Below are positions 21,879 through 22,123 of a DNA stretch of 64,000 bases, piece by piece. Origin of the DNA: an uncultured Clostridia bacterium (GTDB lineage Bacteria > Bacillota > Clostridia > Oscillospirales > Ruminococcaceae); the NCBI GenBank assembly GCA_947510165.1, contig CANNSB010000005.1:1-64000 (forward strand). Reading direction: 5' to 3'. The notes beneath the pieces were generated by a model. The model did not search any database. It saw only the letters and a list, made by a program, of their open reading frames with translations, and had not been told where the DNA came from. Position numbers and translations under genes: made by a program. The number at the start of each line of letters is the position of its first letter. The first letter of the stretch is position 1.

Positions 21879-22123
21879 CTAAACATTTTGTTCAAATCTT
21901 TTTTTTAATGTTGATATGGATATATGTGATATATAAATTTTTTTGTTTTTACATAGTATAAATGTTTTTGGATCTTTTAATGATATATTTATTATATTAT
22001 TTTTTTTATTTGATATAACTAAAAAATCTCTCGTTTTTGGTGAAACAGTTGATTTTTCTAGATCAAAAAAACCTATGATATTTTTTTTTTTATAATTATA
22101 TCATCCCCTAAAAAAATATACAT
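21879..22123 (-). pseudogene. remB: RemB (DUF370, YaaB) gene, frameshifted at an A11 tract
   Basis: Read on the minus strand, ATG 22123 (TGGAG 7 nt upstream) begins Met-Tyr-Ile-Phe-Leu-Gly-Asp-Asp-Ile-Ile-Ile-Lys-Lys-Lys, then hits a TAG after an A11 run (22081-22091). Adding one base restores Asn-Ile-Ile-Gly-Phe-Phe-Asp-Leu-Glu-Lys-Ser-Thr-Val-Ser and a clean frame to the stop at 21879-21881. The restored 81-residue product matches RemB throughout, including Pro-Lys-Thr-Phe-Ile, Tyr-Ile-Ser and Ser-Thr-Leu-Lys-Lys-Arg. RemB/RemA proteins are small DNA-binding regulators, and recF-remB-gyrB is the usual order. The 245-nt length is one short of a codon multiple. It may be a pseudogene, an assembly error or a slippage-rescued gene. 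Confidence 0.88.

Follow-up and report, generated by a model that had tools for sequence, protein, structure and literature searches.

A remB gene broken at a poly(A) tract is shared by three species of a Clostridia genus, is kept under selection and is probably expressed by recoding

Endosymbiont genes with frames broken at poly(A) tracts are rescued by transcriptional slippage, as was reportedly first described in an original report of 2008. Both Blochmannia and Buchnera carry poly(A)-frameshifted genes that are rescued in this way (PMC3017870), and in Blochmannia vafer eight genes are broken at poly(A) (PMC3017870). A second well-described system is tssM1 of Citrobacter rodentium, where slippage of RNA polymerase during transcription of an A11 tract gives about 20-25% shifted product (PMC4256274). 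Tracts of An with n above 7 have been cited for slippage (PMC3711429), and insertions during transcription cluster in A/T runs, where mostly one base is added (PMC5574713); such one-base insertions are in the direction that would be needed for the remB gene described here. RemB is annotated as an extracellular matrix regulator (NF046065) of which little is known, and RemA from Bacillus and Geobacillus forms rings, binds DNA and activates biofilm genes (PMC8481266).

The remB gene under study lies on the minus strand of the window, by which we mean the whole stretch of 64,000 nucleotides that was analyzed. It starts with an ATG at 22123, ends at 21879 and sits in the gene order recF-remB-gyrB. 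Its upstream neighbour (22137..23258, minus strand) and its downstream neighbour (19918..21864, minus strand) are open throughout, and we take them to be recF and gyrB, respectively, on recognition of their sequences and on gene order. A GGAG ribosome-binding-like site precedes the remB ATG (22130..22133, minus strand), with a duplex value of -7.7 when paired with an assumed 16S tail, not that of this genome. The original prediction held that the frame of remB is broken by one base at an A11 run, that both halves match RemB and that the gene is otherwise intact, and all three statements were borne out, including the coordinates of the run (22081..22091, minus strand; T11 on the plus strand). 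From the ATG, frame 0 reads MYIFLGDDIIIKKKIS and then meets a TAG (22073..22075, minus strand), so that the zero-frame product would have 16 residues. The front part of the gene consists of codons 1-14 of this frame (MYIFLGDDIIIKKK; 22082..22123, minus strand). The rear part is in the -1 frame, which is open from the A11 tract to a TAG at 21879-21881; it comprises 67 codons plus this stop (21879..22082, minus strand). Base 22082 belongs to both parts after a -1 shift.

The two parts together were identified as RemB by comparison with the RemB equivalog model NF046065. The rear part alone scored 41.8 bits against a cut-off of 40; adding the front part raised the score, and the joined product reached 64.2 bits and covered positions 1-76 of the 84 in the model. 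With the Pfam model for RemA-like proteins, PF04025, the joined product scored 25.8 bits, just below the gathering score of 26, and the RemB of a relative (L038) scored 37.8 bits. The remB gene described here thus resembles known RemB (NF046065) in sequence, in length and in its place between recF and gyrB, and differs from it in that the frame is broken 14 codons past the start. An intact RemA-like paralogue is present elsewhere in the same genome.

To place the break, we compared three genomes of the genus, namely that of the window (G000), G001 and G002. G001 (CAMTHN010000033.1) is a bin from ERR5094899 and G002 is the isolate AC_RUM01 (contig JAGUQX010000002.1, assembly version 01); both are metagenome assemblies. 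Their RecF proteins are 92-93% identical to that of the window, and all others among the matches listed for 298 family genomes are at most 50% identical. Farmed Arctic char harbour AC_RUM01 as a gut symbiont, which becomes dominant once the gut is empty and has been detected in wild char as well (PMC11092275); SRR24775306-SRR24775308 are three gut samples of that study. For assembly version 02 of this genome, a size of 1.30 Mb, a G+C content of 27.1% and MiSeq sequencing at an average coverage of 64.1 are given (PMC11092275). The G+C content of the window is 24-32%; a symbiotic life, as suggested by the AT-rich symbionts of the original prediction, is documented for the sister from the fish gut and not for the window's own species.

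The same remB break was found in three of the three genomes, with no indel between them. Both sisters have the ATG, the same front residues except for a change of Ile10 to Leu, the three lysine codons, the frame-0 stop and, in the -1 frame, the rear part; their zero-frame product would have 15 residues. The first residues, MYIFLGDD, are identical across the three species. In G001 and G002 a G follows a tract of A9, where the window has A11, and the total length is equal, which indicates that the difference arose by substitution and not by an indel. The alignment of the window and G002 around the tract runs over 311 bases, A11 included, without a gap. No further stop or indel was seen in remB of any of the three species, and the rear part is without ATG, GTG or TTG in all of them. 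The best explanation is that the remB frame has been broken since before the three species parted.

The break was then viewed against the family. A scan with the RemB model, in which a match was counted at an E value of 0.01 or better, found RemB in 134 genomes of a family sample of 149 and none in the other 15. Among these 149, only G000 and G002, the two members of the genus in the sample, had a match whose start is at model position 13; the open frame there is 73 codons long. The other best matches start at positions 1-4 and reach near the end of the model, apart from short ones in G041 and G146, where the contigs end, and one in G159, where positions 1-59 are matched inside an open frame that is 107 codons long. 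A single internal stop is present in seven matches, always close to or at their end; these were rejected as breaks because a stop at residues 78-86 is the gene's own end. The joined protein of the window was also compared by tblastn with 30 RecF loci (L032-L061), three of which are from the genus. In 26 of the 27 others remB is in one frame, including L055, in which it is cut after 61 residues at the end of the locus; the remaining one, L053, has no remB among the listed tblastn matches and its contig ends there. The break is a trait of this genus, as far as it has been sampled.

Selection on the 67 codons of the rear part was estimated by the method of Nei and Gojobori. Between the window and G002, there are 17 nucleotide differences, which change 5 residues and alter 10 codons silently (dN 0.038, dS 0.337). 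The ratio of about 0.11 is like that of recF; for the same pair, the dN/dS values are 0.031/0.215 for recF and 0.007/0.253 for gyrB. Between the window and G001 there are also 17 differences, which change 6 residues (dN 0.045, dS 0.294), a comparison that shares most of its history with the first and is not independent of it. In a neutral simulation, 17 substitutions were placed randomly on sites of the same base in 20,000 trials. For the window and G002, 12.6 changed codons were expected and 5 were seen, and 0 of 20,000 trials were as conservative; for the window and G001, 12.7 were expected and 6 were seen (P 0.00015). Simulations in the reverse direction gave 0 of 20,000 for both pairs. The G001-G002 pair differs at 6 bases, 3 of which change residues; with P 0.22 in one direction and 0.02 in the other, it gives little constraint. 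In the two alternative frames of the rear part, 11-14 codons are changed and 7-8 stops occur. In the front part, one residue in 14 codons is changed, both between the window and G002 and between the window and G001. Since the split between the window's species and the other two, the rear part has been kept as a protein, which places this selection after the break if the break was a single event. The finding is thus real and stronger than first stated, as the break is shared by the genus and the gene is under selection.

Since the rear part is conserved and has none of the usual start codons, it must be reached by recoding, through cells in the population in which the frame is restored, or from a rare start. 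The original prediction had offered decoding by slippage, a very recent pseudogene and a read error as the options. The shared break, the MiSeq data and the purifying selection speak against the latter two, which leaves recoding as the best remaining reading. We consider it quite probable, on sequence comparison, that remB is a working gene the product of which is made by recoding, whether by the polymerase or by the ribosome. For full RemB to be made, either the message would have to gain a base or the ribosome would have to shift by -1. We propose that RNA polymerase, as it transcribes the tract (A11 in the window species and A9 in the other two), sometimes inserts one A too many. A fraction of the mRNAs would then carry the full RemB frame of 81 residues, and the remainder would give a peptide of 15-16 residues. 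The ribosome would yield the same protein if it slipped back one base (-1) on these tandem AAA/AAG lysine codons, and this second route may add to polymerase slippage or take its place. In either case, the slip rate would set the level of RemB, which, judged by its family, would here be a regulator made in reduced amount. The original prediction had named polymerase slippage as known in AT-rich symbionts; recoding as such is favoured by the sister comparison, and polymerase and ribosome are not separable from the sequence. We rank RNA polymerase slippage first as the most likely route and the ribosome second. If recoding does occur, our own apportioning makes the polymerase the likelier agent and gives the ribosome a lesser but sizeable share.

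On its best reading, remB may be a further case of the known recoded genes interrupted at poly(A), such as those of Blochmannia and tssM1 of C. rodentium. Its tract is of about 9 or more (A11, A9 and A9), as in poly(A)-frameshifted genes, and its break is conserved without other erosion; tracts of A9 and A11 lie within, or close to, the lengths at which slippage operates. It shares with the Blochmannia and Buchnera cases the AT-rich reduced genome, the single indel in a long A tract and an otherwise intact gene, and in some of those cases the break is likewise conserved between species. It is unlike them in that the sister genome G002 belongs to a Clostridia gut symbiont and not to an insect endosymbiont. 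The numbers differ as well, with four to eight genes broken per genome in Blochmannia (PMC3017870) and one found here in the 31% of the genome that was screened. Like remB, tssM1 has an A11 tract, added A's that give the full protein and a zero-frame stop downstream (28 nt there), but it requires both a short and a long protein (PMC4256274), whereas the short product of remB has only 15-16 residues. Against polymerase slippage, a survey of E. coli and Buchnera detected no transcription error that restored a frame (PMC5574713).

Programmed -1 ribosomal frameshifting as the main route is possible, though we would not expect it, and its share is already contained in the probability given to recoding. 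Two tandem lysine tRNAs would slip back one base on A_AAA_AAG (G001 and G002) or A_AAA_AAA (window), with help from the stop just past the site and from a Shine-Dalgarno-like GGAG or GGGG that precedes the first heptamer by 13 bases. An in-frame slippery heptamer of the form X_XXY_YYZ and the internal Shine-Dalgarno-like site (GGGG at 22105..22108, minus strand, in the window; GGAG in G002) are present in all three genomes, and in each the frame-0 stop is at most 2 codons past the shift point. A_AAA_AAG is the shift site of E. coli dnaX (PMC5009743), so that remB in two species has the heptamer of dnaX-type recoding along with its upstream Shine-Dalgarno-like site (PMC5009743, PMC3711429), and some prokaryotic -1 sites are stimulated by such sites (PMC4066793). 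The A_AAA_AAG form is, however, missing in the window species, and the Shine-Dalgarno-like site falls where the protein needs Gly-Asp codons anyway; since the Leu-Gly-x-Asp of RemB needs similar bases, this site is not specific evidence. Bacterial -1 frameshift sites often, but not always, have a stem-loop or pseudoknot downstream. In nine stretches, three per species, RNA folds around and after the remB site did not go beyond those of shuffled sequences (z -1.58 to +0.55), in a test that covered folds other than pseudoknots. Unlike dnaX, remB thus has no stem-loop that was found, and its recoded product would be the gene's only RemB-like protein and not a second form.

Apart from recoding, the frame might be restored in the DNA of a minority of cells, with tract length varying among cells and the assemblies showing the OFF majority. 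Long A tracts mutate readily, selection on the ON cells would keep the codons constrained, and the same off phase in three assemblies would not be very improbable by chance. Phase-variable tracts usually differ in length, however, and this one is unchanged in length across the three species; by its family, RemB is also a regulator encoded beside recF and gyrB rather than the product of a surface gene. We regard such phase variation as unlikely. It is less likely still that remB is dead, its break having been fixed in the ancestor and its sequence merely not having decayed yet. A small genome (1.32 Mb, 19 contigs) with an intact RemA-like paralogue might tolerate the loss of remB, but the purifying selection on the rear part, with its recF-like dN/dS and its place outside all neutral trials for the window and G002, and the lack of any additional stop or indel in three species make a dead gene unlikely. 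A start of the rear part at a rare codon (ATT, ATA or ATC), with the front part unused, is highly improbable: it is the A tract, and not a ribosome-binding site, that directly precedes such codons in remB, and MYIFLGDD is both identical in the three species and part of the RemB model, even if rpe of this genus seems to start at ATT behind AGGAGG in the two species examined. Least probable of all is a homopolymer error in sequencing or assembly, for although G001 and G002 come from metagenome assemblies, three assemblies agree in frame state, Illumina MiSeq reads at about 64-fold coverage underlie one of them, and the tract is just A9 in both sisters, so that a read error is very unlikely and one common to all three is not credible.

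The rpe gene, so named by recognition, is an observation in its own right. In both species (L073:17893-17904 on contig C3 of G000; L094 on contig C24 of G002), an in-frame ATT follows 3 bases after AGGAGG. In G000, no in-frame ATG, GTG or TTG precedes the Met of MLHID (about codon 34), and the same is true of the codons seen in G002; the less complete G001 gave no match to this feature. This looks like a conserved ATT start codon.

Returning to recoding of remB, we suggest tentatively, and with more doubt than confidence, that the break is a programmed regulatory switch, in which RemB would be gated by slippage at codon 14 and the break would have been kept through speciation and not repaired. 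If so, the rate at which polymerase or ribosome slips would let a host-associated bacterium set how much of a regulator it makes, and all of its RemB would be recoded protein. With remB, a chromosomal regulator of Clostridia provides a conserved and selected case of probable recoding that involves neither an insect endosymbiont nor a mobile element, and it offers a gut-associated lineage in which slippage can be tested directly. We found no account of remB recoding in the literature searched, which included few subscription papers; among the RemA/RemB papers listed no title was on frameshifting, and the main text of PMC3711429 mentions neither RemB nor DUF370. The case also shows a would-be pseudogene to be under selection, and it suggests that homopolymer-broken genes in AT-rich assemblies should be compared with sister species before they are discarded.

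We also asked how remB stands within its genome. The screen of G000 covered 407,983 bases (31%), consisting of all of contig C5, the first 40 kb of C8 and no more than the initial 20 kb of each of the remaining 17 contigs. It looked for runs of at least 7 A or T flanked on both sides by open, coding-like sequence, the two sides differing in frame, and it demanded a stop within 60 bases past the tract, no earlier start in the rear frame and coding-like scores, by which cases can be missed. An unscored version returned many rows, which were taken to be mostly probable antisense shadows, and the scored version was used instead. It gave 8 rows, one of which is remB. In five others an ATG occurs no more than 10 codons from the tract, and these were set aside as gene junctions; C9:14036 is antisense, at the junction of two genes that both lie on the other strand, and at C3:17875 the tract precedes the AGGAGG of rpe and lies outside the gene. 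No other gene broken at such a tract was found in the screened 31%, and remB is therefore apparently not one of many decaying genes.

Long runs are depleted in the coding sequences of this genome. In 301 genes, A runs of at least 9 were seen 36 times against about 74 expected from synonymous shuffling, A runs of at least 10 were seen 7 times against about 29, and T runs of at least 9 were seen 3 times against about 11.5; A runs of 5-8 were above expectation and not depleted. Long runs seem to be costly, as transcriptional or replicative slippage would predict, and the depletion of long A runs could stem from mutation at the DNA level instead. Lysine codon use in this genome favours AAA (8966) over AAG (1423). 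Since an AAA-rich tract is ordinary lysine codon use here, retention of the tract in remB proves nothing by itself.

Other long tracts were observed in the window. An intact murI-like gene contains an in-frame A11 (12214-12224) and recF an in-frame A10 (22986-22995); in G002 the former is shortened by substitution and the latter is unchanged. If polymerase slippage is common here, part of the murI-like and recF mRNA would be out of frame. An A9 at 27493-27501, near the end of a yidD-like ORF (27263-27508), aligns to A8 in G002, a difference that would alter the frame of the tail of the yidD-like protein between the two species. Finally, the GC skew changes sign within 24000-28000 of the window, between the genes read as dnaA and rpmH, as is expected for a replication origin.
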